This document shows, one piece after another, positions 90 through 50,858 of a stretch of 64,000 bases of DNA. This DNA comes from Coprinellus micaceus. Lineage: Eukaryota; Basidiomycota; Agaricomycetes; Agaricales; Psathyrellaceae. Below the pieces are notes generated by a model that was not told where the DNA came from, made no database searches, and worked only from the letters and a program-made list of their open reading frames with translations. Both the position numbers and the translations under genes were made by a program. Position 1 is the first letter of the stretch. Each line of letters starts with the position of its first letter. Location of the stretch: positions 1,984,001 to 2,048,000 of the forward strand of contig OX596344.1 of assembly GCA_951394405.1 (NCBI GenBank), read 5' to 3'.

Positions 90-3000
90 ATGTCGTCGAC
101 GGGCTTTGGGGAGCAGATTCATCCCACTGACCGTATACGCGAGGTGCTGAACGCCTACTCGTTTTCTTCTGCCATCCTTCGCGAGATTTTGGCCAACAGC
201 GATGACGCTGGGGCCACTGAACAGGTGTGTCCTCTTCCCTTATCGATGAGGCCTGACCTGAACGTGCCCAGAGAATTGCTTTGGATTGTCGAACTCATCC
301 ACAGGGAAAGATACTCGATTCAAGGATTGGTGATACCCAAGGACCCGCCGTCCTGGCTTACAACAGCAGTGTTTTTAAGGAAGACGATTGGGATGCGATC
401 CAGTTCATCGGTCGCTCTTCGAAGACAAAAAGCACTTCGTAAGTTTGCCATCTACGAGACTACTGTAAGCGCGTCCTCACAGACCACAGTAAGATTGGGA
501 AGTTTGGACTAGGCATCCGCTCCTGCTACCATGTGAGCGATATATGCATTGGATAGCAGTTCACGAGCTGATTTGCCCCCAGATCACCGACTACCTCCAG
601 ATCCTTTCTGGTACAAACCTTCTGATTTTTGACCCTCTGCAGACCTTCAGCAAGGATGGTGGAATTCGCGTTACTTTCAATCCTGAGAACATCGACAACG
701 TACGCGACCACTTCACGGCTTTCTCCTATTTCTTGCCAACCGGCTGGAATGGCGAGAGGTTTGACGGAACCATAGTCCGCCTCCCTCTCAGGGACAAACC
801 CGGACTCAGGGAGAAGACCCTCTCCCCGCAAGACATCCAGGAGCTCTTCCACAGTTTCATCGAAAAAGACCTCAGTATCTGCTTACTCTTCGTGAACCAC
901 ATTCGATCCATCACCTTGAACATCGTCACCGAGCAGGGAAATGTCAACCAAATGGCATCGTGCACCGTCAACGTCGATAATGGGAGTGGCTTCGATAAGA
1001 AGGTCATGAAGCTTCAGGTGCTCGGAGTCGAGTCGGAAGATCACTGGCTAATGGTCCATGAACACTATCCCCCTGAAACTATCTTGCAGACTCTTGCCTC
1101 TCGAGTGGGGTCACCTTCCCTCAACAAGGTGCTAGAAGGAAGCAAGCTCTGCCCCGATGTTGGCATCGCCTTTCCATTACATCTCAGTACCGGACCTGAA
1201 AGCAAGGCCAACATTGGCCAACTCTTCACCTTCCTCCCGCTCCCTGTCAAAACAGGTTTCCCAGCACACATCCATGCCCTGTTCGCCTTGGACTCATCCA
1301 GGCAGCACCTGTGCATGAACCGCGACAGTGGTACTATGAGAGGGTCTGAAAACCAGTGAGTGACAGATGCTATTGGACATCAAAGACATACATCATATAC
1401 TCACATTGATCTCGTTCAGGATCTACGACGAATGGAACCGAGTTCTTTTTGAGACCGTGATCCCGCATGCGTGGTCCCAGCTGTTAAGTAGCGTTGCGGG
1501 GGCAGAGCCTCCCTCGTTCAGCGTCTTTGCTGCGTGGCCCGACCCTCAGCTCTTCGCTACGGATGGGGAAAGTGCGTTTTGGCGAACTTTCACTCAAGCT
1601 GTGTTGAGCACCGTCCTAAGCCGAGAACTCTCTGTGTGGCCCGTCGTTGGTGGCGGGCACCGCACCCTGAAAGATGTGTTCATATTCTCGCGCGATGGCG
1701 ACGTGGGGGTTGCGAGGGCCCTTGGTAGGATTGGCCTCCAAATATGTGGCCCCGTTCCTCAGTATCTCTTCGACTCTGTGGCCGCTACTCCTGGATGGAG
1801 CCATCGAAACTTGACACCAGAAAATGCGTCGGCTGTGCTCAGGGTATGTGAACCCCATTCTCCCGCATTTCTCATGGCCTTAAGTGCTGTTTCCTACAGG
1901 TCAACTTCCAGGCTCAACTTCGTCGGGCATCCGGTGATCGACCAGACGATCTCAAAGCCATCTTAGGCTATCTCCTCTCAAACCCCAGGGTCAGCAACAT
2001 CGCCGACCTTCCGATCATTCCTACAGTCTCTGGCCAATTCGTCTCACTGTCGACATCAAGCACAACAACCGTCTACACTCTCCTCGAGCCTCAGGAATTC
2101 GACATATTCCACGCCTGCGACCCCAACTCTATCCACATCAACGACCTTCCGCCCAGCACTCGAGAGTGGTTTAAAGAGACCGCACCAGGACAGCTCAACC
2201 TCAAGGGTCTTGACCCAGCACACGTCATACAGTACCTTTCCCTACACCCAACCCGCATCAACGTCGATCTCTCCTCCGCCTACATTGATGGTGCTGCCAC
2301 CGCCTTCCTCACCCGGTTCTGGGTCTGGGTGAGTGGTTGGCGTCACGCCGTCCTACTACTGCCTCAACTCAGATTCACGAAATTACTCCCTTGCATCGGT
2401 GATGGGCTCGAGGACGCGGACCCGGAGACGCCGGTGTTTGATCCAGCGCCCATCGAATCCGATCCAGCACTGCTCACGGGCTTGCGCGACCTTGGGGTCC
2501 CCTTCCTTTTGCCCTCCGACGCCCAGCTTAAAGATGTCCTACGCAGATACGGCTTGCTCAGATCACCCTGTGAGGCCAAGACCCTCCTTCGCTCCCTTGC
2601 TCGTACTAGCACGGCCAGCACGGTGACCCTCAGCCCCGAACAAGCCCAACACCTCCTTGGCCACTTCAACGTATATGCGGCATCCACGAGACCTTTGGAT
2701 TACGACGAAACTGAGGTGCAGGCGTTGAAAGCGTTGCCAATCTTCCCCATCGTCGAGGTCAGAGAGACGGGCCGTCAGTTGTGCGTGAATACGAGACGTT
2801 TCTCTGTCGAAGGAGTTACTGTGTATGGCGTCGAGAGGGACTGCTTTGGAGTGCTCCCTGACCTACCCAACATCGTCTTTGTGGACGTGTCCGCCGTCAG
2901 TCGAGGCGTTTTGGCCCTTCTGAATACCCAAGCGCCAACTGCATTGACCTTCCCCATGATTCTGGACATCACCCTCGAACGCCAGGCTCTCGTGCGGCAA

Positions 3001-6000
3001 CCCCAGGAGTTGCTGGCCGCAATCCTCACTCGTGTTGCGGATCGAGAGAGGGAGCTCACCGGGACGCTTAAATACAAGATGCGGTCACAAGTGTTTGTCA
3101 TGTCAGAGGGCGGGACGACGGAAGCACCCGGAAGGCTGATCGACCCATCGTCTCCACTACGCGCGTTGTATGCAGACGATACGAATCGACTTCCTCGCGT
3201 ACACGACGACGTGGATCGACGAATCGTCAGCAGCCTCTCCTCCGTTGGCCTTCTCGATCGAGACTTGTCCAAGGAAAACGTAGAGGATCGCATTCGATAC
3301 ATTGCGGACAAAGCCCACTTTAGTTTCTCGGTCGAGCTCTTGAACATCCTCTCCAGGTTCGACTGCGAAAAGCTCGACCTGGATGGCCAACTTCGGTGGC
3401 TTCCGACACAGAAGGGGACCCTGGCTCCCGGGAACGAGTGCAGGCCTGGCAGAGGTCGAGGAACATGGCATGACGAGCGACTCTTCGACAAGGTCTTAGA
3501 GATGATCAGCCCCCGTGTGGCCACTGTTCCGCTGACACTTATCACCAAGATGCATTGGGATCATCCCATACCCGTGGACACCTTGAGAAGACAATTGGTC
3601 CACGTTTTGCAGGAGGGTGGAGATAGTGCTATTCGTAGGGTTGAGGTAGTGCTGGAGGAGTTGAGCAAGCGGAAGTTGAGCGGGATCGAGTTCTCGCAGT
3701 TGAAGCAGGCTTTGGAAGGGAAGGCGTGGGTCCCCGCGTCCGGAATCCGTGGAGATCTGTTGGTGGAAGCGTGGCGGGCGGTTTGTTCTGAGGATGTTTT
3801 CAGCGGAATTCACCGCATCAAGGCAAACCTGCGCAGCTCCACGAATAGTCGGATATTCTTGCGCAACCTCGGGTGTTTGGACGAGTAAGTATCGTCCGTC
3901 TATCCCGATTATGTCCCGCTGACCGCAGCCATCATTAGACCTTCGTTTGATACCGTCAAGCGACAACTCGATCAACTTACGGTTCAACAAGAGTCCCAGC
4001 ATAATTCGGACATCGTCGCTCCAGTTCTCGCTGCCTTGCGCTTTTGTTCCAAGAAATTGACCTTGAGTAACGAACAGCGTGAGCAACTCCGAGTTCCCGA
4101 TCAACGAGGCCAACTGCACGATATTGGCAAGATTGTCTTCAATGACATTGGGCAAAACGCCATCGCCGTCCCACTACCGGCGGAACAGCACATCGCGCAC
4201 GGCGACATCAGTGACGCCCTGGCAGCATCCTTAAGGCTCGAAAGGTTGGGCCTCAAGTACATCGACTTGAATACGTTGGGAGAGGATATGGGGGCTTCCC
4301 CCGAAGACCTCGTCAGGGAAAGTCTGTCGGATTACGAAGTCCGCCAATTCCTCCCCGAATTCCTCGCGAATGCCGAAGATGCAGGGGCGACCACCTTTGA
4401 GATTATCATCAGCAACCAGATCCCATCCCAAGGTCGCTTTCTATCGCCTGCGATGGAGGATCTTTGCACTGGACCTTCCGTCATCATCTACAACGACAGT
4501 CGATTCACGGACACCGACTTTGAAGGCATTTGTCGGACACGGACTGGTGGCAAAGCCAATAGAGACGACACTATCGGCCAATTTGGCCTCGGCGCATTGA
4601 CAATGTTCCACATCACAGATGTATGTGCTTTCATCTAGCAGGTGCCTCCTGCAGGCTAATATCTCTGTTTAGTGCGCGTTCATCTTCTCTGGGTCAAAGA
4701 TCCTGATCCTCGATCCGTCAAAATCCCACTTGCCACTCGAACCCAAACGGGCCTCATCGCTGCTGGACATTGACAGAGTCATGACGTAGGTGTACGCCTC
4801 CGTGTCCCTACGGCCAGTTACTGAACATCGCCCAGTCTGTACCCAGGCCACTTTGATTGTCTGCGTAATCTTCCGTGCTTCGATTCAAACGCTCGGCAAG
4901 TCAATGGAGTGAGTCATTCCCTGGATCATTTTGTCGATGTCTTTTGAATTCAATACATTCAGACTGTCTTCTTTTTGCCACTTAGAACCTCCTCGAAAGC
5001 GACCAGGGGGCGGCCGTCGCTCAGCACACAAGCATTCCAGGATGCCAGTACATTCAATGAAGTTGTGCTCGCTCAGTTCGAAGTGCTAGCGCCAGAGATA
5101 CTGCTTTTCCCTCAACAGGTCCAGCACATCAAAGCGTTTGTTCGGCAAACATCGGGACAGCCCCTTCGAAGCCTTTGGTCAACTACCGTGGAACGTTCAG
5201 CGCCCACCAACCACGGGGATTTCACCGAATACAGTGTATCCGTTAACTCCCAGTTGAGGGGACGGAGCTCAGGTCATCGCACTTCCCAGTGGCTAATCGT
5301 CTCCCGGACGATCAGCCTCGCCGACGTCCCTCAAAGCTTCAGGAGCAACAAACTCAGGAAGCACGTTAGGCTGGGTTTTGCTGCGCCTCTTCGTGGTCTA
5401 GCTACACCTTCCACCCCGTTCGAGCCCAAACTCTATTCCATGCTCCCACTTCCCATCCAACATACGCTCCCAGTCCACATCAACGCATCTTTCATTCTTT
5501 CGTCTGATCGGCGTAACATTCGGTTCGATGCCTACGATGACGAAGCGTCGCGTTTCAACAGCTGGATTGTAGACGACGCCATGCCATCCCTATACTTGCC
5601 CCTCTTGGAGCGACTTGCGCATTTGGACGGTGGTCAAGACAACGCCCGCTGGTTCCCGGGAGCCCATCCAACGTCGTTATTTGGCCATGATGCTCGCGCG
5701 GCGCGGGAGGGCGACCTGACATCTCGGCTGACCAAGCATTTCTACGCCACGCACTTACCCAGCTCGACCCGCCGTGTCTTCAAATCTATGTTCACGAACC
5801 AACTGCTCACTCCTGGAGAAGCCGTCCTGCACCCATCGGATACCACTCCTTCCACGATCGTCGCCAAGACATTCGGCCTCCTTCGGCCCGAATCTCTGGT
5901 CAAGCTCGACTCTGCTTGCAGGAGGCGGGCTGAGAAGGGCGGTGTAACTGTTGCAGGGCCACCATTCTTGAAGCAAACCCTTGGCAACGGTCAGAGTATA

Positions 6001-8764
6001 AGTACCATTCAAGCCACACTCGCACGAGGAGAAATCCGCGAGCTCCTGTCCTACCTGTCGCAGCCGAATGTGGAACATTTACATGGGCTGCCCCTGATGC
6101 GCTTGGGAGATCATTCCTGGACCACCTTCGAACCCTCAAATCGAGCTTCTGCGTGCTATTTCTTCTGCGAAGATTACGAGTCGAAGTACGCCTCCCTGTT
6201 CCCCCCATCCCGTTTCGTCTCTCCCGGCTATATTGACCCACGGTTGCTGGAAGGGAGGAACCCCTCAAGTTCCATCAATATTAGGCCTCTAGACACTGCA
6301 GGAATTAGACAGCTGGTGGAGGAGCAACTGGACGCCCTCGCCCCTCAGAGAGCCGTCGGGGAGTGGATTGACAGGTTCTGGACAAGTTATCGCCACCTTC
6401 GACACGAGGGCCTCATCAAAGCCATCGAAGACTTGCGTCTGGTACCCACTACCAACCCGGGGTTGTTCAAATCACTCTTGGAGTTCAAAGATGGGGAGAC
6501 TTTGCTCATCAGGGAGCGCGAAACTGCTCTGGCTGGATGGTTCCAGGACATGGGACTATCGGTGGTCTCATCCGATGCGCTTCCTTCGTCGCTACATGAT
6601 CTATTGCACTATGGGGAATATGCTCCAAAGGTCAACGCCTTCATATCCTTCCTTCGTTGCGTCAACCCTGTCATTGCCTCGGCCGTTGCAACGATCCAGG
6701 GCTGGCCATTCGACCGACAACGGGAATTCTCTGAGCATGTGCGGTCTCTCATGACTGGGAGTATGCCCATCCCCCCGGAGCTTCTCGCGACCGCTCGTCG
6801 CATTCCGCTGTGCGTCGCAAAGCAAGGGAATAGCGTCAAACACTGCCCTGCAACCGAGGTGTACCTTCTACCTAGTGAACTCGACATTACCGTTGGCCGT
6901 TTTTGCGACAGATACATGACGGATGATGGGTTGGTTGCGACGAAGATGGGGGAAACACGCCTGAACATTTCTCAGCTACACAATCGACTGCAAGTCCCAG
7001 GGCTGCTTGAGCGAGGCGAAGACGAGGCCACATATCGCACCCTCCTCCGGTATCTCTTGACGTCGGAGCATGTAAGGAAGGGACGATGGAGGATTCAAGT
7101 ACCCAGCGCCGACAGACGAATGGTGTCTCCACAGGATCTCTACGAACGGAGCACTTTCTTCGTCGCTGCCTTTGGCACCTCATCCAGTCAGTTCCTCCTG
7201 CCGTCCTTCGATGAATTCACATCTCGCCTGCCTGTCACCCGTGATGGGGAACTCTCGATGGACCTCTTCGCCCGCTGTGCGCTTGCCTTCCAGGCCAGCC
7301 TCGAACCCGAGACCGGTGACGGAGTTGAACGAGCTGCGGCGCTGTATGGGGTATATAGAGAGCGCCTCCCACTCCTCATCCCAGAAGGGATGTCATCCCA
7401 ATGGCAGCAGGCTGAGAGCATACGGTTCATCCCGAGAGAGTTGGAGGTGAGGGCAAGGGAGGTGATGGGGGTGAGAGTTGACCTTCCATCGGCCCTCCTG
7501 GGCCTGCCCCGGGTAGTCGCACCACAGAGAATTGTCCTGAGGACATATCATCCCATCGCGTGGACGCAGCGGGTTATCATGGTTGATGAGCCTCAGGCGG
7601 GTTCCCGACTACTATTAGCTTACCAGGGGTTCGGGCGTCCTTCTGGAAGAGAAGTAGTGAGTGTATTTGCCCTTGCCATCGTCCCAGATCTCCTGACCAT
7701 CCACATAGATTGCCCACCTCAAGGCCCTTGTGACTTACCCACGTGGACCAGTTATCCAGAGCGACCTGAAGGACACCTACAGGTGGCTGAACGGCAACGC
7801 CGATACCCTCAAGGAGGAGATCTTCGAGCTCAGGGACGAGCCCGTCTTTCTAAATGTCGACAACCCAAACTACGACGAATGGAATTGGTCCAAGGCATCT
7901 GAACTCGCGCTCAAGGCGCAGGACATACCCGGTGCATGGCAAGCAGTCCGGCGATTCCTACAACCATTTCGTAAGCTCCTCGAAGCCGCCGGAGTTCTAG
8001 AGTTCAAGTACCCGAAGATAGAGAGGCAGGACCAAGGCGCTATGAGGGATCGGGAACATACATCATTCAGGGGGATGCGGGATACTTTCAACGAGATGAG
8101 GTTGGCGGGGCAGTTGACGGACGTACGCATCATTCCACAGGAAGCTTCGGCCCTGACGAATATCGAGGCGCTGCGCGCACACCGAGTCTTCCTGGCCGCA
8201 TGCAACCCGTGGTTCAAGACAATGTTTACGGAAGGGTTCAGGGAAGCAACAGAGGATGCACGGATTGATGCCACTCAATCCTCCTTGGAGTCCTTGATTG
8301 GTTAGTCAAATCTCGACGCAGTCCTTCCTGATCTAACACCCCTACGCAGGGTACTACTACACTGGAGTCCCTTTCCCACAAGCCGACGTGGAGCTGAATG
8401 ATTTCCTGGACACCCTCGATCTTGCACACTTTGTTGAAGACGACACCTTCCTCGTAGGTGCCCAGCACCAGATCATCGACTCCGATCAAGTTCGGGAGCT
8501 TGTAGACCCTCGCCTTTTGGACTACGGTATGTTACGGCTAATTAGGTTCATGGTAGCTGCTCATGTTGCGTAACAGTGCTTGAACGTGCCGAGGTCTCAA
8601 ACGCGAATGTCCTAATGGAGTGGTGCCAAGACTACCGGGACCTGAACCAGGCGCTATTGTTCGATATGCCGACCGCAGATTCGGAAGGGAGTTTAGAGAC
8701 GGAGACAGAAATTCACGCCGACACAGGCTTGACCATCGAACCGCCTTCATCGGCTATTAACTAG
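90..8764 (+). CDS. Giant sacsin-like HSP90/GHKL ATPase protein with C-terminal BTB domain (copy 1)
   Basis: Thirteen exons: 90-224, 272-438, 490-532, 583-1355, 1420-1843, 1900-3884, 3939-4620, 4673-4785, 4836-4908, 4963-7656, 7709-8300, 8350-8526, 8577-8764, giving 2,681 residues. All phases agree and every exon aligns to copy 2 at 12.46 kb. Residues 1-115 form a sacsin/HSP90-like ATP-binding domain: N-box REILANSDDAGAT, then GPAVLAYN, then the glycine loop KIGKFGLGIRS. A second such domain lies near residues 1310-1395 (EFLANAEDAGAT, TIGQFGLGALTMFH). The last ~190 residues hold a BTB/POZ domain (HRVFLAACNPWFKTMF near residue 2520). Known: human sacsin is a large chaperone-like protein with repeats of this ATPase domain; BTB domains often dimerise and bind Cullin-3. 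Inferred: a chaperone or substrate adaptor linked to ubiquitin ligase, probably cytosolic since no signal peptide or membrane segment is visible. The start is the first ATG before the conserved domain. Confidence 0.88.
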
Positions 8765-9108
8765 CTTTTTCAGGACCACCTAGATTTAGATGACGAATAC
8801 GACGCTGTACTGATAGTCTATACGGATACTACTACTGATTATATGCCACTTTTACTATTGTTACAAACAAGGAGTCCTGAGCGCAGAGCACAGTTCGCAT
8901 ATTATACACCATCAAGGAGCAACGTTAACGCAAAACATACCAAGAATCACGACCTAGGTTGGGAGTTGGTAAGAAAGCTAAGGGATGAAATTCGACGATG
9001 ATGAGCTATTTTACATTGATTGGTGACTATAGGCGCCACATGCTATGAAGCACCAGAGACCAGATATAATACGATAGTAGGGTAGGCCCGTCGAAACACA
9101 TGGAAGGA
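8765..9108. other. Convergent intergenic spacer
   Basis: This AT-rich 344-bp stretch separates the 3' ends of the first giant gene and the HAM1-like gene. It must hold both 3' UTRs. I see no gene, repeat or RNA in it. Confidence 0.6.
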
Positions 9109-11735
9109 TTAGAAGTCGAAAGCGGCACTCTGCCAACCAGGTCTCTGCTCCTCGAAATCGACCTTCCTTTCCACGCTGTTCTTGAAGGATTCAACCTGGT
9201 GTGAAGCAACCTTCGCCATACCGGCAGCCCTGTCCCTCACCTCGCTGAGCGCTGCTTGCGCCTTCCTCGCCGCACCATCCACATTGATATCCACATCACT
9301 CACGGTATTCTTCACATCCACTCCAACCTCCTCCCCGATCCTCTGCACCTTGTGAGCTATGGGCTCTGAGCCTGTGCCCAGGGGACCACGCTTCTCCCCA
9401 GAAAGGATCTGAGGCTCCGCACCCATAGCGAACGTCGAACTTCGAACCTTGGACTTCAGTTCTCCCTCCCCTGGAATGATGGTCTTCTGCTCGACGATGA
9501 GGCCAGTGCCCGTAGCGTGCATCCCGACCTCTCGGCGCCTGGACTCGCGTTGCAGACGCCCGAGTTCGCTCCACATAGCGCCGATGAGGGAGGCGCCGTT
9601 GCCGAGGCCAGTGTCCTCGAAGACCTGCTGGCGCTCGCTAACATCGTAGGCAACGCCATCCGCCCAATCGATAGCGGCACGGAGTTGGCTGGAGAGGGCG
9701 CGCTGGAGGGCGTCGCGAATGCGAGTGACGATCATAGGCTTCATGACGGTGGTCAACAACGCGTGGTTGCTCTCTTTGACGTCGATGGCGACGTCATCAG
9801 CGATGGAAACGTCGGCGGTCTCGATGACATGGAAGTGCTTGAGCCCGTGGCGGGACCTGGGGCCTCTGACAGTCGCGGGGATGAGGCGAACTTTCAGGTC
9901 GAGATCGATGCCCTTTTCGGGGAGCTTGAATCCCAGGAGGCCAGTGAACTCCCCAGGAGTGAGAGTACCGGCGGTCTTGTCCTTGTACCAGAACGAGACG
10001 TCGTCCAGCGCGAGCTGGAGTGCCTGGATGCGGACGTGTGTGAGGGTACCGACGGCAGTGAGCGAAGGTGTAATGGGGGAGTCGGAGGTGGTGATATCGA
10101 CGTCGGTGATGTTGCGGATATAAACGTGGGAGGGTAAGAAGTTGAAGGAGGAGATGTCGAGGTTCTCGAGGACGAACTCGATCTCACTGTCCTTGTACTC
10201 TGTCCTAGGGATGGGGAAGTCGCGCATTTTGCTAACAGCCTTGGGGAGGTAGACTTTGAATAGGTCCTGCCAGAACCACGTGGCCTGCTCGATCGCGGCC
10301 TCCAGAGGACCCTTCGATTCATCCACTGCTTGACCGGTCTTCTCACTGACCTGCCTAGAGGCCTCCTTGGCGGCGGTCTCCAAACCGTCTCGTAAATCGT
10401 TGCCAAAGCTCATCTGCGCGGCCTGAATCCTAGCAAGGTCTTGATCGCCACGGACGCCCTCGTCGATCTTCGACCACTCGTTCTTGAGAGCCTCAATATC
10501 GCCCCTCCACTTATCGTCCTTCTCCATGTAGCTGCGCCAGCGGGCTCCGAGCTGCTGGCGCTCCTGGGCGGAAGCATCGCTCGAGACAAAGTCCTTGTCG
10601 GTCAATACACGGCGGAGGTATTTGAGGCCGTCGTCAAACCACTCCTTGAGCTCAGGGTCACGCATGACGGAGGCGGTGGTGGTCCTGAATTTACCGATGA
10701 AGGGGTCCAGAGAGGTGCCGGCGAGACGTTCAACGAAGGCGCGGAAGAGGTCGACTGCTTTGGGAATGTGCTGCTCGGGGGTGGTATCGTTGAAGAAGTT
10801 GGCGATAGTCGCGCTGGGGTCGGCGGCGGCGTCGAGAGAGGCGTCGAGACGCTTCTGGAGGATGTTGAAGATAGTATCGAGGGATTGTTTGTAATTCTCA
10901 TCGTCCTGGGCGCGGGCAGCGATCTGTAAGTGCTGTTAGTACGAGTGACCCACAGAAAGGAGAAGTAGTTACGAACCTTGGACAGGGCGTCGGTAATGCG
11001 ATCATGAGTCTTGGATGCCTTCTCCTGCACGGTCGCTGACGTAGTCTGGGCGCCACCGATGACCTTGGTGCCGGCATCCTTGACGGTGTCCATGCCATGC
11101 TGCCAGGCAACTTTGGGGTCTTTCTCCTCCTCCAAACGCTGCTTGCTCCGCCCAAGGGTATCCCGATCGCCAGCCTGAACTTCGTCTTCTACGGATCGCA
11201 GAGACTCCTTGGCAGCACCAGCTTTCTCTTCAACGAGCTCGGCAGCATCTGCTAGGGAGAGGCGGAGAAGAGACACGAGGTCATGGAACACGGAGGTGCC
11301 TTCGGAGGAGAGGCTCTCCCAGACAATGGAGATGAGGGTGCGGAGAGAACGTCGGAGGGCTTGGATGTCGGCCTTCGCCTCGTCCTTCTCTCCCTCGGCT
11401 TCTGGGGACATTGTGAGCTCGCCTTCAGTCAGGTGCCACAGTGCCTCCTGAAGGATGCTATCGCCTGTGGAATGACATACTGAGCAACTGCTAAAACAAA
11501 AGGAGTACCAAGTTTCCTAACCGTTCTTGTTGTTCAAGAAGGCCTTGTAGGCGTCGAGCGTCTGCCTGACGCCGCTAGCAAGGGCACGACCCCGCGAGCT
11601 GAGCTCGGCGTTAGATGAAGGTTCGACTTGGGTAATCCCGACATCGTTAAGCCAGTCGATGAAGGCGTTGAATTGTTGGGTAGATGGAAGTTTGCCTGCG
11701 GTGAACGCAGCAGTTACTGAAGAGGCTTTGTCCAT
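9109..11735 (-). CDS. HAM1-like protein (BPI/TULIP-related, fungal)
   Basis: Three exons on the minus strand: 11735-11522, 11464-10977, 10923-9109, giving 838 residues. The protein opens with MDKASSVTAAFTAGKLPSTQ, a typical start of the fungal HAM1-like N-terminal domain, a helical region that continues for several hundred residues. The second half has the HAM1-like C-terminal domain, for example SHVYIRNITDVDITTSD followed by amphipathic strands and LGFKLPEKGIDLDLKVRLIP. Known: Ham1 is a fungus-specific family; in Cryptococcus it was described as a palmitoylated protein affecting mating, and the fold is related to lipid-binding BPI domains. The lipid-transfer role is inferred from family relationship only. 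No signal peptide or membrane segment is visible. The gene sits between two giant sacsin-BTB genes, divergent from the second one with a 724-bp shared upstream region. Confidence 0.85.
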
Positions 11736-12459
11736 GATGAAAAATGTAAGGATGCTTGTGAGGGGGCGGAGTCAAGTAATCTGGCTCAAATACGACTGCT
11801 CCTAGGCTTTATATACTGAGTCAACGAAGGGTGGAATGCCGATGGTATGGTAGTGGAACCTCGTCAGCCTCACCTATGACGCTCAGGAGTATGACGTCGA
11901 TTTTGGGTGGAGTCGCTGCGTAGGCGGGCGCAGCAAGGGCCATCCACATCCACTCAGGCCACCTTTGAACAGTCATGACGACCCCAACATTCAGAAAGGA
12001 GTGGGGTTACCAAGCGCCTCTTTGAGTTGAGTGGACATGGAGGAAGAAGCCAGGAATGGAAATTGCTCACAGCGCGCCACCATCACGGACATCAACAGTC
12101 CAAGCCATTTCGGGTTGCATCCGTCCACCACTTCCGCATGTTCTGCAAGTTGGAAGGTGCAACCAAGGCGATTTCGAGGCTCGGACGACCCAGTGAAGAC
12201 TTGGCCGACGTGTCTAGCCTACTGGGACGCGTGAAACGCGGTGAGACATCCCATAGAAGTCCCAGGTTATTCGATTACGAGCCTTGAAGAAACTAGCCAG
12301 GGTCGATTTGCATTTCAATACAACCACAGGGACGGGCTTCTATGGTAATACATGTAATTGAGTCGGGCTCAATGACACGCGGCCGAGGAGCTTGTGGCCC
12401 CACAACCGTGTTCAATCCTCTTTCATCCAAACCACCACGAGCGCGAGCCTACCTCAACA
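11736..12459. promoter_or_regulatory. Bidirectional upstream region of HAM1-like gene and second giant gene
   Basis: This 724-bp stretch lies between two divergent start codons, so it should hold both promoters. The string TTTATATACTGAGTC around 11811 is a possible TATA element about 75 bp upstream of the HAM1-like start, read on the minus strand. ORFs at 12027-12287 are short, overlap each other in two frames and have no recognisable content; I take them as chance. Confidence 0.45.
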
Positions 12460-15400
12460 ATGGCGAGCTCTGCGTTTAGGGAGAACGTGGACCTGCTGGG
12501 CGTTATTCGCTCTATTCTCGAGAACTATCCATTTTCGGCGGGGTTACTGCGCGAGATACTACAGAATTCGGACGATGCAAAGGCGACTGAGCAGGTGGGC
12601 CGATACTTCCCTTTGTCTCCACTGCCCATTGACGTTGTCTAGGTGTTTGTGTTAGATTGTCAAGTGCATCCTAGGGAGCACGTTTGGAACGAAGACGTTG
12701 TAAGCTCGCAGGGGCCAGCTCTCTTGGCGTATAACAACGCGTTCTTTCAAGAGGAAGACTGGGAGGCACTCCAGAACATCAGCAGGTCGTCGAAGAAGGC
12801 GGACACTTCGAAGATAGGCAAATTTGGGATAGGGATCCGGTCTTGCTATCATGTGGGTTTCCTGTCACCTACCTCGAGAACGCGCTCTCATTCCTTTGTA
12901 GATCTCCGACTTCTTGCAAATACTGTCCGGAAAAGACCTTGTAATTCTCGACCCGCAACGACTTTTCCACCAAGATGGAGGCGTTCGCCTCAACTACAAA
13001 GAACACGCAGAGAAAGCGCGCGACCACTTTCTCACCTTTCGCCATTTCCTACCGGAGGAATGGACTGGAGAACCATTTGAGGGCACTGTCGTACGTCTAC
13101 CCTTGCGGACCCACCCTGGTGAGCTCCGAGAGAAGACAGTCACGCCCCAAGAGATCCGGCAGCTTTTCGCAGACTTTATTCGAGATGAGGTCGGAATGGC
13201 CATGCTTTTCTTGCAGCACCTTCGCTCCATCGAGTTCGTTGTCATCGACGAACATGGGAACCTCGACCGATTGGCCAAGTCAACTATCACTGTCGAGCCT
13301 GGTCTTGAGGACGGCACCTTGAAAAAGTTTGTTCGTGTGGACGCCAAGGACGTCGTGTGCAGGGAAGAGGAATGGCTGCTGATTGACTCCCGTCCACCTG
13401 CGGATGAAGCTATGTCCAAGCTCACAGCTCGAGCGGGTGAGCTTAGCGCGAGGATCATGAAGAAGAACAAGCTACGGCCTCACGTTGGAATTGCATTCCC
13501 CATTCCCGGCGACGTTTCCCACCTGCTAGACGACCCAGGCCAGCTGTTTACATTCCTACGACTGCCTCTAGCGACTGGCTTTCCAGGTCACGTCCACGCC
13601 TACTTTGCTTTGACGCCATCAAGGCAGAACTTGAGGAATCCTGGTGACAGTGGCGTCGTGAAAGGGTCGGATGACTAGTACGCTTCTTCCTAAAGTTTTT
13701 TCTATTCGACCCTCACATCTACTTTCAGCATCCTTATACAATGGAACAAGCTCCTCTTTGAAGAATTCATCCCTCGCGCTTGGTCGCAACTACTCGATGC
13801 TCTTGCTCGAATGTACCCATCAGTCAGCATCTTCACCGCGTGGCCCGCACCGCAGTCTTTCTCCAAGTGTGGCGAAAGCGTGTATTGGAAGTCGTTCACA
13901 AACGACCTGCTTGAGTTCGTGCTCCAAGGTCGCCTGGCTGTGTGGCCCACGGTGGGCGAGCACGGATACCAAGCGCTTGGCGACGTGTTGGTCGCGTCGC
14001 CCGATATCAAACCGGAAGTCTTAACGGCCCTCACTAACGTCGGCTTGAACGTGTGTGGACCTTTGCCAAGCTTCCTGTTCGGTCTCGTCTGTAGCAAGAG
14101 CGAATGGAAGCATCGCGTTCTGTCACCAGAGAGTGCATCGGACGCCCTTAGGGTAAGGATCTATTATTAACTTCCGTCCCATTCGCTGACCATCCCGCAT
14201 CCCATTCCCAGCGTAATTTCATTCCAGCACTTACCGCAGCCAGCAACGAGCAAAAAGCAGACTTTGGCACCATCATCGAGTTCCTACTCTCCTCGAGCGA
14301 CTTCAGCAACATTGTCGGCCTCCCGATCATCCCAACGGTCTCCAACCAATCCGTGGCCCTGTATGGACCAAAAGTGATGCCTATTCACACCCTCCTCGAT
14401 GAAGGGGAGCACGGTCTGTTCCACCCTTGCGACCCCAATGCCATATACGTCCGAACCCTCCCTGCATCGACTCGGAGGTTGTTCAAGCAAAAAGGCCCTT
14501 CAAATCTCAACATTCAAGTCCTCAACTCGGCGCGTGTCGCTGAATACCTCTCTGTCCACCCCACCCTCCACAGTATCGATACCACTGTACGGCCTCCAGA
14601 AAACGTCATCGCATTTCTCGCTCAATTCTGGCTTTGGTTCGACGGATGGGGACAACGCTCGCAGCTCCTCCCCAATCTCGCATCTATCCCTCTCCTTCCG
14701 TGCTTTCATGGATCGAAGGAAGCAGACAGGAGGAAGCCCGCCTTTGAGGTCAACCGATCTGTCAATGAGGATCCCGCTCTTTACGATTACCTCTCGGACC
14801 TGGGGGTTCCCTTCCTCATCGACGATGGAGAGATGAACAAGGCAAAGGAGGTCCTTGTCAAGTACGGGTTGGTGAGGGCGCCTGAGGAAATAAAGCCCCT
14901 TCTCGACTGTTTGTTGCGCTCGAAGAGTAGCATTTCCGTGCCGCCTTTGGTCGGCGTCCATCCTGCAAAATTGCTGTTGAAGCACCTGAACACCCATATG
15001 CTGAAGACGCCGCTGCAAGATTATTCCGAGGTGGAGGTGGAGACATTCAGAACGTTGCCTATATTCCCCATCGTTGAGTGGAATGCCGAACGTGAAGGAC
15101 AGCCGAAGCGGAGGTACTCCTCCGTCTGCGACATTGCAGTGTACGGGGTGGATAAGTATGAGATGCTGCCTGTACTCCCCAACACCGTTTTCGTCGACAC
15201 TGGGCTTTTCAACCCGGATATCCTCCCGCTCCTCAATGAACGGGAGCCTGCCCCTCTCTCCGATTTGAAGGTCTTGGAGTTGTGTATCAAGAGGCTGTAC
15301 CAACAACCAAAGGGATTACTGGCTGCCATATTGAAGCACGTAGCCGTCCACGAGAGGGACCTCACTGGAGCCCTTCGAGACTCGCTCGGATCTGAACGGT

Positions 15401-18400
15401 TCATGCACTCTGCGGTTGGGACTTTGAAAGCACCCAGGAACCTCGTGGACTCGGCATCTCCCCTTTATCCCCTGTACGTCGGCGATCAAGAACACCTCCC
15501 GCGTTTACAGGACGAAGCGGACCGACAAATCGTCGCCCACCTCTCTGCGATTGGCTTATTGGATCGCGTCCTGTCGAAGGAAAACGTCGAGGACCGGATT
15601 GAACACATCGCAAAGACTTGTCGTTTCGACTTTTCGATGCAGCTCCTGAATATTCTGTACGCCACAGGGTTCGATTGCAAGCTACTCACTCTCGACGAGT
15701 CGCTCGCCTGGCTGCCGGCTCTCAAAGGGTCGTTAGTTACTGCGGCCAAGTGTCGGCCGGGACGCACTCAGGGAGGTGTGCACGACGAACGGCTTTTCGA
15801 CCAAGTCCTTGAACGGGTCCACACTGGGGTGCCGACTGTCCCGCCCTCTCTCAAGGTGAAGTTGGGCTGGGATGAACCGATTGCCTTCGATATCTTGGTG
15901 AAGCAGTTGGGCTTTTTGCTCGAACTCGTGGGCGCCGATAGGGTTTGGAGAGTCGAGGTGGTGATCACGGAGTTGAGTAAGCGGTCGTTGGAGGATGAGG
16001 AGTGGACTGAGTTGAGACGCGCTTTGGATGGGAGAGCTTGGGTTCCTGTGTCTGGAGCAAGAGGAGATTCACTCGAAGAGACGTGGCGAGCGGTGTTCTC
16101 TTCACCGTTCGTTGGGGTATACCAAGTCAAGCCGACACTGTTGAATCAAAGAGGCAAGACTTTCTTGCGAACCTTGGGTTGCCTTGATAGGTGGGTCCAT
16201 CCTCAACAAGCATCTCACCCAGTGACCCACTCAGCATATTTCTACCCTTCAGGCCCACTTTGGAGACAGTTGTTCGAAGGCTGGCGCAGCTCGCGGCGCA
16301 GCAGCCGTCCTCTGCCGTTACTTCATGGGCTCTTGACGTCCTGCGGTTCGCCGTCGAACTGGATCTCGGTGACGAAGGGCGAGCACAGCTACTGGTACCC
16401 GACCAGCGGAACCAACTGCGCCCAATCCAAGAAATGGTATATAACGATGTTGGGTCGCGGTCTCTTGTCGCACAGCTTCCATCAGGCCAGGATATCGCGA
16501 ACTCAAAGGTCGACGATGAACTAGCTAGGGGACTTCGGCTCGAGCGGCTGGGTCTAAAGTTTGTGTTCTTGCAGTCACTCGGCGAGGACATGGGCGTTTC
16601 TCCGGCAACCGTCGTTGAGAAGACGTTGGCGCAATACACAGAGAAGCAGTTTCTCCCTGAATTCCTTGCGAACGCTGAGGATGCAGGCGCGTCGGTGTTC
16701 GAGGTTATTATCAACGACCCTAGCCCAACTAAGGGTCCTTTCCTTTCCAACGCGCTTGAGAGGCTTTACAGTGGGCCCTCGGTCATGGTCTGCAACAATA
16801 GCGAGTTGACTGAGAAGGATTTCGATGGGATTTGTCGAACGCACATTGGAGGGAAGACTGACCAGGCTGATACCATTGGTCAGTTTGGGCTTGGGGCGCT
16901 AACGATGTTCCACGTAACGGAGGTGCGTCGCCATTCTATCACAGATATAATAAAGGCTGACCATATTGGTAGTGTGCCTTCATCTTCTCCGGAACGAGTA
17001 TGCTTGTCTTGGATCCCTCGAAGGTACATCTACCGATCCCAGGGAGGGCGTCTTTGATCCTCCCATTGAAGGACGTTGCCGAGTAAGCGTTCCGTATACA
17101 GTCGTTCACGAATCATTTCTAAGTCGTGTTCAGCCTCTACCCCGGTCATACCGATTGCTTGCGGGGCCTCACATCCTTTGACCAGGATGCGAAACGCGTA
17201 AACGGAGTACGGCCCTCTGTTTCCCTTCATCGGCTCATACGTTTTCTGACCGTTATACTGTTATAGACTATCTTCTTCCTGCCTCTCAGGAGCCTAAACC
17301 ACACCGTGGGACGAACGGCATTTCGGCCATTCAACTACACCATCGAGACGTTCCAGGACTCAATCCTTCGTGATTTCCAGGGGAAAGCACGGGAATCTTT
17401 ACTCTTCATCAGGCTCAGCCACATCACAGCAAGGAGACGAACGCCGGGTCAACCGTGCCAATTCCTTTGGTCGGTTGACGTCCAACGCACGGCGGTTGAA
17501 GTCAAAGAGTATACTGCCGCCAGGGTTACCGTATCGACTCAAGCTCCCAACACCCCTCAGGATTCATCCAAGTGGCTGGTGGTCTCCAATGCTCTCTCCG
17601 CAACCGAAGTTCCAGACAGTGTCAGGACGGGTGACGGGAAGAAATCTATCAAGCTCGGACTCGCTGCGCCTTTGAACGAAGAACACTTCTCCCACGCTAA
17701 GTTATTCTCGATGCTCCCTCTGGCTATCCACGTCGCGCTTCCGGTACATGTCAATGCTTCATTCAAGATGTCTTCAGACCGAAGGCAAATCCGCCTCGAT
17801 GCGTATGACAACGACGACACGCGGTTCAACCGCTGGCTGCTCACAGATCAACTTCCTCAACTGTACCTCGCACAGCTGGAACTCCTAGCTCTCGAAGGGG
17901 GCAAAGGAAATGCTCGATGGTGGCCTGGAGCTTCCCTCAAGGCTGGTGCGACTGTGCGCGAAGGGGGTGAAGAGGAAGAGACTGAGAATGAACTACATGA
18001 TTCTCTAGCATCCATGCTCGTCGAGCACTTCTACAAGACCTACCTTCCTCAGTCCACTCGGCCTGTATGCTGCCCCACTTATCCCGGGCGAACTCTGCGG
18101 TTCTCGGAGGCCACTTTCTACCCAAGCTACTCAAGGCCCGCGCTACCACCTGCCGTCAAGAAGGTTTTGGATAAACTTGAGCCATCCATGCTGGTGACTC
18201 TGCCTGTCGTTAAGAGGAATGCGGAGGTCTGTGGTGCTGCTGTGGCAGGACCCGACTTCATCAAGCAGCTTCTCAATGATAGCTCCAACACGAAGACGGC
18301 TCGAGAACATCTCACAGGAGAGTCCGAGATGTCGGACCTCCTGCGATATCTCGGGACCCCTGACCCCACCCATCTCGAGGGGTTGCAACTCCTGCAATTG

Positions 18401-21011
18401 GAAGACCGCACATGGGTAACCTTTGGTACGACCACGGCTATGCGCACCGTATACCATTGGCCGGCTTCAGACAAATATGTTCGGGAAGGGATTTTTCGAG
18501 GCTATCGGTTCGTTCATGTCGATACGTTCCCTCTGGAGCTGCTGGATGGGTCCCTTGGTTCCATTGGGGTGCAAACATTGACCGCAACGGCTGTGAAGGA
18601 GCTAGCAGAAGAACAAATCAACAGCTTGCGGGGCGACTCGGAAGCCATGGGTAGATGGGTAGACAAGTTTTGGCAAGCTTATCCCACTTTCCCCCCATGC
18701 GATGGCCTTCCCAAGACAGTCGAGGCGTTGCCACTCGTGCCGACCATGGGCGAAACTACTTTCAAGTCACTGTTGCAGGTCAAGAATGTAGAGATCCTCC
18801 TGACAAGTAACCTCGAGGAGGGGTGGCTCAGGGATTGTTTCCAGGACCTTGGGATCCCCGTCGTCGACCAGAGGAACTTCACCGTGACTCTAATGGATTT
18901 GATCCGATTCGGGGAGTACAGTCCCACCGAGCCGACGGTGTTTGGCTCCTTCCTTCGCGCCGTGTCATCGATCTCGCCTTCCCCTCTGCATACACTCCGG
19001 CATTGGCCCACTCAGCGACAGCAAGAGTTCGCCGCTTGGGCTCGCAGGAATATATTGCCCAAGCCAGAAAAGCACCTGAAGACTGCTCAAAGTCTGCCCA
19101 TCTGGCCTTCGAGGAAAGGCGCTACGCTTGCCCTCCGTTCGGCGAATGATGTGAGGCTGCTACCGTTGGGTGTCTCCCTCGACGTGGGTCGGTTTTGCCA
19201 GAATTTTGTGGCTGATGAGAGATCACTCCTCCATCTCGACAAAGAAGCGATGACGGTACAACAGCTCTATGGCATCCTTCGATTCAACGGCCTCCAGGTA
19301 GGCGAAGACGAGAATGTCTACCGAACGTTCCTCCAACGATACCTCCTCCACTCTGGTGTTGTTGAAAAGCCTTTAGTACCCAACGCTGCAAGGGAGATGG
19401 TTGCACCGGACATCCTGTTCGAACACAGCGATTTCTTCGACGCCGCCTTCGGAACGACCTCCCCCAATTTCCTTCTCCCTTCCTTCGACGAGTTCGGCAG
19501 ACATCTTCCTTTAAAACGCGACGACGGAGTCAGAATCAACGTCTTCAAGCAATGCGCTAGGGCTTTGCAAGATGCCAACAGCCCGGACAAGGTTGAACGA
19601 GGGCGGATCGTCTACCAAAAATATCACACCTTCCTCCCTCTCCACATTACATCCGAGGACAACTGGCGGCAATTGGATGATATTCGGTTCATTCCTAGGA
19701 ACAGGGCGACAACTAGGGTGTATCACGGCCACGAGGTTGAGCTCCCACAGCGCATTCGCGACTTACCGCCCCTCATATCGCCGAGCAAGGTAGTCGTAGG
19801 CAAGTACTATCCTGTCGCGTGGACGCAGTGTGCCCGTCTGGAAGTCGAGCCTGAGCCGAGACTTGCAATGGTGTACCCCGATTTTGGATGCCCATCCGGC
19901 GAACAAGTTGTACGTTGCCCAACTGGTGGGTGTGTCCTATGTACACTAACCATATTCCTGATAGATTGCACACTTGCGAGAACTCAAGGAGATGTCCCAT
20001 ACGAACCACGGGGTTTTACAAGACTTGACTTTAACCTATCAGTGGCTGAACGAGGAGGGCAATCTCGAGAAAGTGGCGAGTCTCATCGCCGATATGAGGG
20101 ACGAACCAATCTTCCTCAACGTCAACGATCCTTCCACAGAGCATTGGACGTGGCTGCCAGCAAATCAGCTGGCCCTAGAGTCGCACGACCTGTCTACTGT
20201 ACGCGCCGTCCGCGAGTACCTGACACCGTTCCGCCGGTTGCTGAAGGCTGGAGGGGTGCTTGAAGCGTTCTACCCTCCAGCCCAAGAAGTCGACCAAAAC
20301 ACAAGGGAGTCAGAGGAGCAGTCTCTTCTCAAACAGATCCGACGGGTATTCAATGAGCAGAGGTTGGCTGGGCAGTTGACGGATGTGGCTTTCGTTCCCG
20401 ACTCTGAAATCAAGCCCGAGCCAGAGGAAGACCACGTTCCTGACAACTTCACCTCGCCAACCACCGTGGATGGTTCTGTGGCGCGTGGACATCGAGCTTT
20501 CTTGGCGGGGTGTAGTCCTACATTCCAGGCGATGTTCACAGGGGAATTCAGAGAAGGCCAGGAGGCAACACCAAGCCATCCGCAAGTAGTTAGACTCCCC
20601 TATTCGAGCCTCGCAATCAAAGCTGCGTTGGGTATGCATGGTCGTTTCAGCTAGTCACGTTGGACTGCGAGTGTTGACATTTGCCTAGATTACCTTTATA
20701 CGGGTGAAGCCTTCACGGAGGGCCCAAAGGCCACACTTGACGACCTTCTGGAGGCTCTAGGACTCGCCGACTATCTCGCCGTCACCGGCTTGTTTAACCT
20801 CATTCAGCGCCAGATCATGAGGGAGAAGCTGGTCGACCCAGACTCCTTCCATAGAGGTTCGTTGCACGTATGTATCTCTGTCTATGATGTACTCACCAGT
20901 TGCGTAGTCCGGGAGCGTGCTCAACTGCTCGGAGCCGATGCCCTCGCAAGTTGGTGTGATGCCTACGAGAAGGGGAACGAGGAGTTTATTGGTTTTTACC
21001 AAGGGCGCTAG
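12460..21011 (+). CDS. Giant sacsin-like HSP90/GHKL ATPase protein with C-terminal BTB domain (copy 2)
   Basis: Twelve exons: 12460-12594, 12643-12852, 12902-13677, 13729-14152, 14212-16190, 16253-16922, 16973-17082, 17134-17206, 17267-19909, 19965-20631, 20689-20856, 20908-21011, giving 2,652 residues. Same layout as copy 1: an N-terminal GHKL domain (LREILQNSDDAKAT, QGPALLAYNN, KIGKFGIGIRSCYH), a second near the middle (LPEFLANAEDAGAS, TIGQFGLGALTMFH), and a BTB domain near residue 2513 (GHRAFLAGCSPTFQAMF, then DYLYTGEAF). Exons 1, 4 and the 73-nt exon have exactly the same lengths as in copy 1; exon 2 equals exons 2+3 of copy 1 (210 nt) without the intron. The 3' coding end overlaps the converging methyltransferase gene by 26 bp. 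Function inferred as for copy 1: an ATP-dependent chaperone-like adaptor. Clear sequence divergence from copy 1 shows the duplication is not recent. Confidence 0.88.
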
Positions 21012-48680: not shown

Positions 48681-50770
48681 CACGACGTATGCGGGCGATT
48701 AAGCGAGATGCGGTGAAGTAAAGTGGGGGTGAGGATGGGGGGTGGAGATTGATACTGATTAAATCCCCTGACCTTTTATCGCCCTTCTTATATCGCCATC
48801 GCATGCTCCAATGGTGTAGATGCGGTGAAGAGGAGGCTGATGGGTCACTCGATATCCGAGCGGGGCGGTGATTGCCGACGGTCGATGTCCAATCGGGCTA
48901 CAGTCTTGGCGGAATGTGCGAGGTCACCTGCAGACTCAGGTAGAAGCAAATGAAAGAAAATACAGGCAAAAGGGCTGGATTTGTGAGCACAGAAAGAAAC
49001 GCGACGCGGGGTTCCGGGTATGAGCGCCTCCCGTAGTTGTAACTGGATCCTTGTCAGTTGTGGGTCCCGGTGTTACCTGCTCGCAATGATCGTCGCCATC
49101 GATCGATGATCACGCTTCAAGTTGTTGCTTCGCGAACAGGCATCCAGCTCCGAGCCCGCTGGGGCACATCTTCGAGTGACATGCCTTGGACCCATAGTGT
49201 GACCCCGTGGTGGAGGGTGAGGCCCTTCAAGTTGTTCCCCGTCGACGACTATGAAGATGGAAAAATTCTCTCTGATCAACTTCGACGGGAGGCATACCTA
49301 CCCGGTTCTGTCGACTTAGCCAGCCCCTTGGTACAGCCTCCCTTTCGGGTACCCAGCGGAGCCTGTGGATAGACCCGGGACACGCGATACCCGCTCCTTT
49401 CATCACAATATAAGCACTCGGCGTCGAGTGTTTACCCGGGTCTAACACAGGGATTAGAAACCCCACCTGCTTGAGCACGGGACTCACAAGATAAAATATA
49501 AGACGTTGGCTCCCTCGTCGAGATGTCGTTCCCCGTAGAGGATCAAGTGCGAGACTATCGATTCTCATTCGTAAAAGATGACCGCGCTCGCGCACATCGC
49601 GTCTTCCCTATACACGATCGCTTCGTGGTACGCCAACGCCCCTCCTTGAATTCCCGTGGCTCCGGTCACCTATTTTTCGCCTCAGCCGATCATGCACTGA
49701 CCGGATAGAGATGCGGAAGGGACCTAGCTTACAGAGTTATAGATGTCTGGGGCATGCTGCAGACTGTGATCTGCCGCCGTCATGAGCTGGGTCCTGCCGA
49801 GGACGACGTGATTCAGAATCACAGATTTGAGGTGAGGCCGATTCCACGACGCGTAAATGTCTGCCTCTGACAAATTTCCGGGTTGGTCTGATGGCTACAA
49901 CGTGCGATGGGACGGGCGCTTACTTGACGAGACGTTCGTCGAGTAAATCCCCGTTCCGAACATTCCAGCTTGAAGAAGGCTTAGCGTTTCCATATGAGCC
50001 AGAAAGACTAACTCGCGCGGTACTCACTGCTTCTCGCCTTCTCAATGTCGTACGATCCTCTGAGGATCAGGCATAAGCTACAATCTGTTCGATGGCAGAG
50101 TTTGGTGTGACTGTCTGATGAGCCCAAGGCACACGTCCTCATCGTTCCGTGAAACAAGAGCTGGGTGTTTCCGACTTTGTTGCTTGAAGCGGAAAGGCGT
50201 TGAACGGGACGTCCTACGATTGAGTGTCGGCGCATAGGGAGAGACATACCTATAGTTACTAAACCTTGACAAGTGAGCCAGGGCATCCGCGCTCGAATGC
50301 GCCACGTAGAAGATGTGCTTGATCTTTGGGGGTGGCTTGGGATGCTTCCAAGCGGTCGCGAACAGGCTCGAAACTTCAGAGCGAAGTTATTAGATGATGT
50401 CTACCCCTAGCGCCAGCAACCCTAGCTCTACCCTCAGTAGAAGGCAAGTGAGCGTCTTCTACCAGGGATAGAGCCATGCGGTAGATCGAAGGACATACTT
50501 CTCCTGTGGTCGTCCTCGTCCTCGTGTATATGGACGAGATCCTATCCATGTTGTGTGGTCCGTGCGTGACCCAATAGACCAAAAACTTACATCAGGGGTA
50601 TCGGAGTGCAGGTGGAACTCTGCTTCGCCTACCAGATCTACGATAATGTGCATGAGGGGGCTGGAGGTGATGCTGGTCGCAGTCAGGGACACGACAGGGA
50701 GTCGAGTTCAGACAAGGCAGGTCGGCGCTCGTAAGTTCCCTTTATATGGCAAATTGGTTGGAAGAACATT
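48681..50770. other. 2.1-kb stretch without a recognised gene
   Basis: Upstream of the peroxiredoxin start this region should hold its promoter (TTTATCGCCCTTCTTATATC near 48775 is T/A-rich). The remaining ORFs are short and have no recognisable features up to the tRNA. Confidence 0.45.
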
Positions 50771-50842
50771 AGCAGCATGGCGCAGTGGTAGCGCGCGGGG
50801 CTCATAACTCCGAGGTCACTCGATCGAAACGAGTTGCTGCTA
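50771..50842 (+). tRNA. Initiator tRNA-Met (CAT)
   Basis: A 72-nt gene, no intron, folds as a full cloverleaf. The acceptor stem AGCAGCA pairs with TGCTGCT. The anticodon loop is CTCATAA (anticodon CAT). Eukaryotic initiator features are present: the first base pair is A-T (A1:U72), and the T-loop is ATCGAAA, lacking the usual TTC. The anticodon stem is CGGGG/CTCCG, so one of the three conserved G-C pairs is a G-T wobble (G30-T40). Internal promoter: A box TGGCGCAGTGG, B box near CGATCGAAAC. A T7 terminator follows. Confidence 0.95.
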
Positions 50843-50858
50843 TCAACTGATTTGTCCC

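Follow-up and report, generated by a model that had tools for sequence, protein, structure and literature searches.

Two neighbouring giant genes, A and B, were found in a 64,000-nucleotide (nt) stretch of Coprinellus micaceus DNA (contig OX596344.1, positions 1,984,001 to 2,048,000; hereafter the window), each coding for a protein in which two sacsin-type, Hsp90-like ATPase repeats are fused to a C-terminal BTB domain. In the current view, sacsin repeats hold clients in an ATP-driven, Hsp90-like manner, and CUL3 receptors dock through a BTB–3-box unit. Judging from sequence, we consider it somewhat probable that A and B are CUL3-type ubiquitin-ligase substrate receptors whose client-handling part is the pair of sacsin internal repeats (SIRPTs). 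The basis for this reading is the fused architecture, the motifs of both ATP sites, the BTB domain followed by a hairpin resembling a 3-box, and the presence of a fitting CUL3 in the same genome.

The two genes were spliced by hand, with introns picked by eye under the guidance of the resemblance between A and B. In these models each gene is read in a single frame with one terminal stop, and all 23 introns are of the GT..AG type and 47–64 nt long:

90..8764, plus strand: gene A, two SIRPT repeats and BTB/3-box, 13 exons, 2681 amino acids (aa); from hand splicing and Pfam.
12460..21011, plus strand: gene B, two SIRPT repeats and BTB/3-box, 12 exons, 2652 aa; from hand splicing and Pfam.

The outer coordinates (90 and 21011) and the sizes (2,650-2,680 residues) proposed in an earlier note on the window were correct. 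The proteins share 43% identity across almost their entire length, and all 11 introns of B match 11 of the 12 introns of A in alignment column and phase. Since intron columns and phases are common to both, A and B are duplicates.

Pfam searches, suggested in the earlier note, placed two stretches of SACS (PF25794) in each protein, with expectation values (E) of 3.2e-96 for A and 7.9e-89 for B, together with one BTB domain; all were above the curated cut-offs, and no other domain was. The two GHKL-type ATP-binding domains that the note had seen in each protein therefore do score as sacsin domains, with an N-box and a G2 motif at both sites. Neither a ubiquitin-like domain (PF00240) nor a J domain (PF00226) or HEPN domain (PF05168) gave a Pfam match at E≤1 in A or B, in which SACS1 begins at aa 11-13, and the Pfam annotations of the 163 listed fungal relatives described below contain no J domain or HEPN. 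The ATP sites map as follows:

126..951, plus strand: A SACS1, ATP site of repeat 1, aa 13-238 (Pfam, motif alignment); N-box LREILANSDDAG at 177-212, G2 GKFGLG at 497-523, conserved Arg in DSSRQHL at 1291-1311.
4312..5106, plus strand: A SACS2, ATP site of repeat 2, ~aa 1301-1513 (limits from homology to B); N-box PEFLANAEDAG at 4354-4386, G2 GQFGLG at 4576-4602, Arg-Arg motif at 5500-5520.
12490..13261, plus strand: B SACS1, aa 11-235 (Pfam, PDB match, motif alignment); N-box LREILQNSDDAK at 12547-12582, G2 GKFGIG at 12817-12843, conserved Arg in TPSRQNL at 13613-13633.
16614..17413, plus strand: B SACS2, ~aa 1296-1508 (PDB match, motif alignment); N-box PEFLANAEDAG at 16656-16688, G2 GQFGLG at 16878-16904, Arg-Arg motif SSDRRQI at 17771-17791.
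17267..19909, plus strand: B exon 9, body of repeat 2, 881 aa (AlphaFold model, mean pLDDT 87.7).

B SACS1 matched the solved sacsin domain 5v44 with an E of 6.8e-41, and B SACS2 was more distant (5v45, E 1.2e-13). When a SIRPT1 profile built from eight animal sacsins was compared with the family profiles, 1089 columns aligned for repeat 1 (E 1e-103) and 1061 for repeat 2 (E 1.3e-76); the two family profiles aligned with each other over 1035 columns globally and 906 locally. In an excerpt of PMC3629688, SIRPTs are defined by a length of 1,100 residues or more, and human sacsin is said to contain three. By profile comparison, each half of A and B is a full-length SIRPT. The first ~270 residues of B exon 9 bear a weak likeness to the Hsp90 middle domain; a Foldseek search with the model of this exon was uninformative.

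Conservation of the ATP sites was counted in A, B and 120 listed relatives (122 rows in all), leaving gapped rows aside. At SACS1 the Glu is kept in 118/119, the Asn in 119/119 and the Asp in 119/119 rows, and at SACS2 in 119/122, 119/122 and 120/122, respectively. The N-box Glu, Asn and Asp and the glycine-rich G2 are present at both sites of A and B, with 117/119 to 122/122 across the rows; judged from these alignments, the ATP-site residues of the family are nearly invariant. The Arg of the SRQ/RRQ motif is present in 121/121 rows for repeat 1 and in 115/118 for repeat 2. This Arg is a candidate for the catalytic arginine of the GHKL/Hsp90 middle domain. In frog sacsin the motif has its counterpart, at the motif level only, in NRR/ARR, close to residues 467-468 and 2894-2895. 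Arg 474, 1839 and 2893 are the arginines of human sacsin named in an excerpt of PMC9880540; frog numbering differs from human, frog residue 1839 lies off the motif, and the equivalence of the arginines was judged by motif only.

The junction between the repeats and the BTB domain lies inside one exon in each gene:

7709..8300, plus strand: A exon 11, end of repeat 2 and first half of BTB (homology to B).
19965..20631, plus strand: B exon 10, end of repeat 2 and first half of BTB (repeat alignment, Pfam).

The B exon codes for ~aa 2341-2562, within which the sacsin alignment runs to aa 2441 and BTB starts at ~aa 2472, in one frame; it is the first of the three exons over which the BTB domain of B is split. 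A separate transcript for the BTB exons, which the earlier note had named as a possible objection, was ruled out, because in A and in B the joining exon codes for both the end of the repeat and the start of the BTB domain.

The BTB domain itself, which the earlier note had placed at the C-terminus of both proteins, was recognised by Pfam (PF00651) with an E of 6e-9 in full-length A and 9.8e-9 in full-length B, and of 3e-11 and 3.3e-10 in the tails. It is followed by a hairpin resembling a 3-box:

8096..8498, plus strand: A BTB, ~aa 2493-2610; φ-x-E is FRE at 8237-8245.
8499..8668, plus strand: A 3-box-like hairpin, aa 2611-2650 (profile alignment).
20358..20828, plus strand: B BTB, ~aa 2472-2609; φ-x-E is FRE at 20547-20555.
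20829..20999, plus strand: B 3-box-like hairpin, aa 2610-2649 (profile alignment).

Alone, the B BTB domain matched PDB entries weakly (KLHL3, E 2.8e-4). A tail profile of 169 positions was built from 17 C-termini of seven orders; Hymenochaetales, Cantharellales and Sebacinales were checked, and the remaining four orders are presumed. With this profile 112 PDB sequences were found at E≤0.01, and the ranking given here is from the best 60 of these. KLHL3 (4hxi, solved with CUL3) matched with an E of 8.4e-20 over positions 7-158 of 169, which include the first BACK hairpin (3-box). Ranked above it were two double-BTB ZBTB constructs, whose single domains score at most 43 bits versus 74. The longest chains of KLHL11, KLHL22, SPOP, KBTBD2 and KEAP1 align to profile positions 155-166, and the 3-box of KLHL3, KLHL11 and SPOP is aligned, at the sequence level, through positions 156-159 of 169. 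The hairpin is among the best-kept parts of the tail, with its Cys and its Asn each present in 105 of 109 rows.

The φ-x-E of the family aligns onto M83-S84-E85 of KLHL3, a CUL3 contact according to an excerpt of PMC3616122. A tail is present in 156 relatives. Both motif columns are filled in 148 of them, of which 134 carry a contiguous φ-x-[ED] and one more has the motif only with a gap; the other 8 are gapped at the motif columns. An earlier, cruder alignment had given 93/111, with 11 gapped. In a second subfamily (Mycena, Collybiopsis and Lentinula; P0104, P0105, P0108, P0110-P0112 and P0115-P0120) the BTB domain is without a precomputed Pfam label in many rows; a W-x-E motif is still present in these tails, and most rows have the 3-box-like end.

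A possible partner is encoded in the same genome (50.3 Mb in 17 contigs searched), where four cullin loci were above the cut-off. The one on contig C6 (2932527-2934746) has CUL3 as its best PDB match (E 1.8e-44 versus 1.3e-32 for CUL4B), and its N-terminus matches CUL3 chains only; on these matches it is assigned as CUL3. Its predicted helix H2 reads LSFEENYRYAYNMVLYK and keeps F54, Y58, Y62 and L66, which contact BTB adaptors according to the excerpt of PMC3616122. The link to Cullin-3 that the earlier note had raised as a possibility thus gained support, at the level of sequence, from the BTB/3-box alignment, the frequency of φ-x-[ED] and these intact contact residues. Of the other cullins, the loci on contigs C7 and C4, both unassigned, resemble each other by eye, and a diverged cullin-like gene lies at C2:602177-603853.

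The note had also suggested a survey of the architecture. With B as query, 268 proteins were found at E≤0.001, and with a Serendipita member 648; the best 120 of each together yielded 163 distinct fungal rows. From a search for longer sacsins (best 120 of 781), 117 new animal or other rows and 3 fungal rows already seen were obtained. All 163 listed fungal relatives are Agaricomycetes by name, the class having been checked for Rickenella, Tulasnella and Serendipita. The tail profile, to which 15 of the 163 had contributed, found a BTB tail in 156, in 153 of them ending at most 130 aa from the C-terminus; the 7 without it have shorter models (1569-2486 aa, against the usual 2600). In contrast, the same scan found the tail in none of the 117 listed animal or other sacsins, and no BTB-bearing relative from outside Agaricomycetes was among the matches listed (best 120 each of 268, 781 and 648). 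Cantharellales and Sebacinales are early branches of Agaricomycetes; since the tail is present in both, the fusion probably dates back to the origin of the class.

Within this class-wide family the genes have been duplicated. Coprinopsis cinerea has at least two members (CC1G_02725 and CC1G_02709), at least 21 species or strains have two or more copies on contigs of equal size, and some relatives bear consecutive locus tags (g1553/g1554, g8671/g8672). In the genome studied here, a 736-aa piece of B found only A and B among the best candidates scored. In a tree of 38 sequences the copies cluster by genus, with support of 1.0 for Ephemerocybe, Candolleomyces and Coprinopsis; A and B group with Ephemerocybe (0.999), and their pairing as sisters is unsupported (0.139). 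We conclude that: i) A and B arose from duplication inside an Agaricomycetes-wide family, and ii) the pattern of copies is most simply explained by local duplication or conversion, occurring repeatedly. A third, divergent sacsin-like gene gave a weak SACS match (E 1e-5) at C3:2641701-2641820 (open reading frame 5554-5925, minus, of that locus). Its N-box looks intact (FRELLQNSDDAR), and no BTB was noticed in its open reading frames, which were inspected by eye only; on that inspection it is another kind of gene.

Some relatives carry additional domains. In four of them (Daedaleopsis, Dichomitus, Epithele and Lentinus; P0097, P0106, P0107 and P0244) an ATP synthase OSCP domain occurs, at ~aa 23-202 in the three scanned, directly ahead of SACS at aa 206; in our genome OSCP is on another contig (C3). 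Either conserved neighbours were recurrently merged in gene models, or this is a true fusion, possibly sending the protein to mitochondria. In EST38_g3559 of Candolleomyces aberdarensis (P0009), a cluster member, the sacsin repeats are preceded by an AIG1/MMR_HSR1-type GTPase at the N-terminus (aa 11-146); this may be a merged model. The sacsin-BTB models joined to inositol-pentakisphosphate 2-kinase in Mycena epipterygia (P0108) and to Atg9 in Tulasnella sp. 331 (P0279) are probably merged neighbours.

If A and B are CUL3 receptors, the repeats would open and close around a client as ATP is bound and hydrolysed at both SACS sites, the BTB domain would pair two molecules, and φ-x-E and the 3-box would dock each of them on CUL3-RBX1; the client held by the repeats would then be released folded or be ubiquitinated. 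ATPase activity, dimerization, CUL3 binding and client ubiquitination would all be expected of such proteins.

The alternative that survives best is that the BTB domain just pairs or multimerizes two giant chaperones, without CUL3. Hsp90 dimerizes C-terminally, and BTB would here play the same part. BTB domains commonly dimerize, as in the KLHL3 dimer (excerpt of PMC3616122), and animal sacsin bears at the same C-terminal place a HEPN domain (excerpt of PMC3710099), which is absent from A and B. Further results weigh in the same direction, and against CUL3 docking. The acid of φ-x-E is lost in 13 of the 148 rows, in which BTB is nevertheless retained. The dimer domains of ZBTB proteins score nearly like CUL3 adaptors on the BTB core, the BTB-only chains being mixed (KLHL26 67 bits, ZBTB7A 55, KEAP1 ~48), and this core alone does not decide between a CUL3 adaptor and a ZBTB protein. 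A contrast in match extent between CUL3 adaptors and ZBTB proteins was no longer given much weight, since the PDB chains of ZBTB proteins stop at the end of BTB, before any visible 3-box; this lowered our confidence in CUL3 docking and in the chaperone-ligase family discussed below, and raised it for pairing alone. Against pairing alone stand a well-kept hairpin that aligns with the 3-box of KLHL3, KLHL11 and SPOP, and the retention of φ-x-[ED] in most rows; these two features favour CUL3 at the sequence level, and we regard a BTB domain that serves pairing only as unlikely.

A second alternative is a role in non-self recognition or defence, in which tandem, genus-specific copies would detect proteins that are foreign or misfolded and either tag these for destruction or set off a response. 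The multiple copies, consecutive locus tags and genus-wise clustering described above agree with this, as does an excerpt of PMC3710099, in which animal sacsin-like proteins with DEATH domains are proposed to act in host-pathogen conflict. Furthermore, the SACS regions of all three members tested (P0001, P0103 and P0007) match the models of PADLOC TmtA, a candidate anti-phage protein (best E 2.9e-75). However, the best stretches span up to ~415 of 1302-1782 positions and cover only the general sacsin ATPase region, as expected of any sacsin repeat, and Pfam found no signalling or killing domain in A or B. All that the match shows is the presence of sacsin ATPase regions in candidate anti-phage proteins as well. 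We consider a defence role improbable, somewhat more so than BTB pairing alone; it is compatible with A and B being CUL3 receptors and does not exclude it. Finally, that separate neighbouring sacsin and BTB genes were merged in our models, whose introns were chosen by hand from DNA sequence alone, is hardly credible, being already contradicted by the exon that spans the junction in A and in B, the coinciding introns of these paralogues and the same fusion in 156 of the 163 listed relatives (BTB match at most 130 aa from the C-terminus in 153).

A broader proposal extends the CUL3-receptor reading to the class: a chaperone-ligase family of ATP-driven, Hsp90-like CUL3 receptors, duplicated genus by genus, in which one giant protein chooses between folding and destruction. 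We advance it tentatively, as possible but short of probable. If true, the genus-wise duplication suggests clients that include fast-changing, possibly foreign, proteins, and fungi would have joined sacsin repeats to ubiquitin by another route than animals. In the ataxia ARSACS it is sacsin that is lost, and there is no agreement on how this protein works. A natural, class-wide fusion of sacsin repeats with a CUL3-adaptor-like part suggests that these repeats act together with ubiquitin ligation, and the fungal protein would offer, for instance in Coprinopsis cinerea, a simpler, genetically tractable system in which clients, the ATP cycle and the coupling of folding to ubiquitination could be studied in one molecule.

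In the rest of the window, the earlier note's description of A and B as adjacent holds in that they are neighbours, but an unrelated gene on the opposite strand intervenes:

9112..10935, minus strand: HAM1-like gene (HAM1_N, HAM1_C), between A and B; from a scan of the largest coding stretch only.

An FtsJ-type methyltransferase lies downstream of B. At 53460-55568, minus strand, there is an NPHP3_N domain (E 2.3e-15), which we take to be a NACHT-type NTPase as in fungal NLR-like proteins, and a tRNA-Met (CAT) lies at 50770-50844, plus strand.

Public databases already contain proteins of this family from many Agaricomycetes, where they are named 'BTB domain-containing protein' or 'hypothetical protein', and in a few rows 'Sacsin'; since some are already labelled SACS and BTB, the architecture is not unseen. 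We found no paper on a sacsin-BTB fusion in fungi in the open-licence literature, which lacks most subscription journals. Papers retrieved for sacsin and BTB were not about such a fusion, judged by title, and those for sacsin and mushroom were unrelated, judged by title and abstract. As far as this literature goes, none joins sacsin, BTB and fungi, and the earlier note's remark that the combination is little described in fungi holds. In an excerpt of a transcriptome paper (PMC11503967), a table lists a fungal match called 'Sacsin', and a survey of fungal NLRs (PMC9815663) mentions neither BTB nor Hsp90.

Among known systems, the plant sacsin-like protein AT5G23110 presumably joins sacsin repeats to a ubiquitin-ligase domain, a RING finger in place of BTB, and would then be a parallel solution. 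PADLOC TmtA shares the sacsin-type ATPase region and differs in that the match is confined to it, with no other part of the system recognised. Animal sacsin (SACS, DNAJC29) has in common with A and B the full-length SIRPTs, the Hsp90-like ATP-site motifs and the giant size. However, it has three repeats (excerpt of PMC3629688) rather than two, and animals attach these to ubiquitin-like, J and HEPN domains (excerpt of PMC3710099), in place of which the fungal proteins have BTB and a 3-box-like hairpin. With the CUL3 adaptors KLHL3, KLHL11, SPOP and KEAP1 the fungal proteins appear to share the BTB fold, φ-x-E and the 3-box-like hairpin. They differ from BTB–3-box/BACK adaptors in showing the first BACK hairpin only, at the extreme C-terminus, and where the adaptors have a Kelch or MATH substrate domain, the fungal proteins have the sacsin ATPase repeats.

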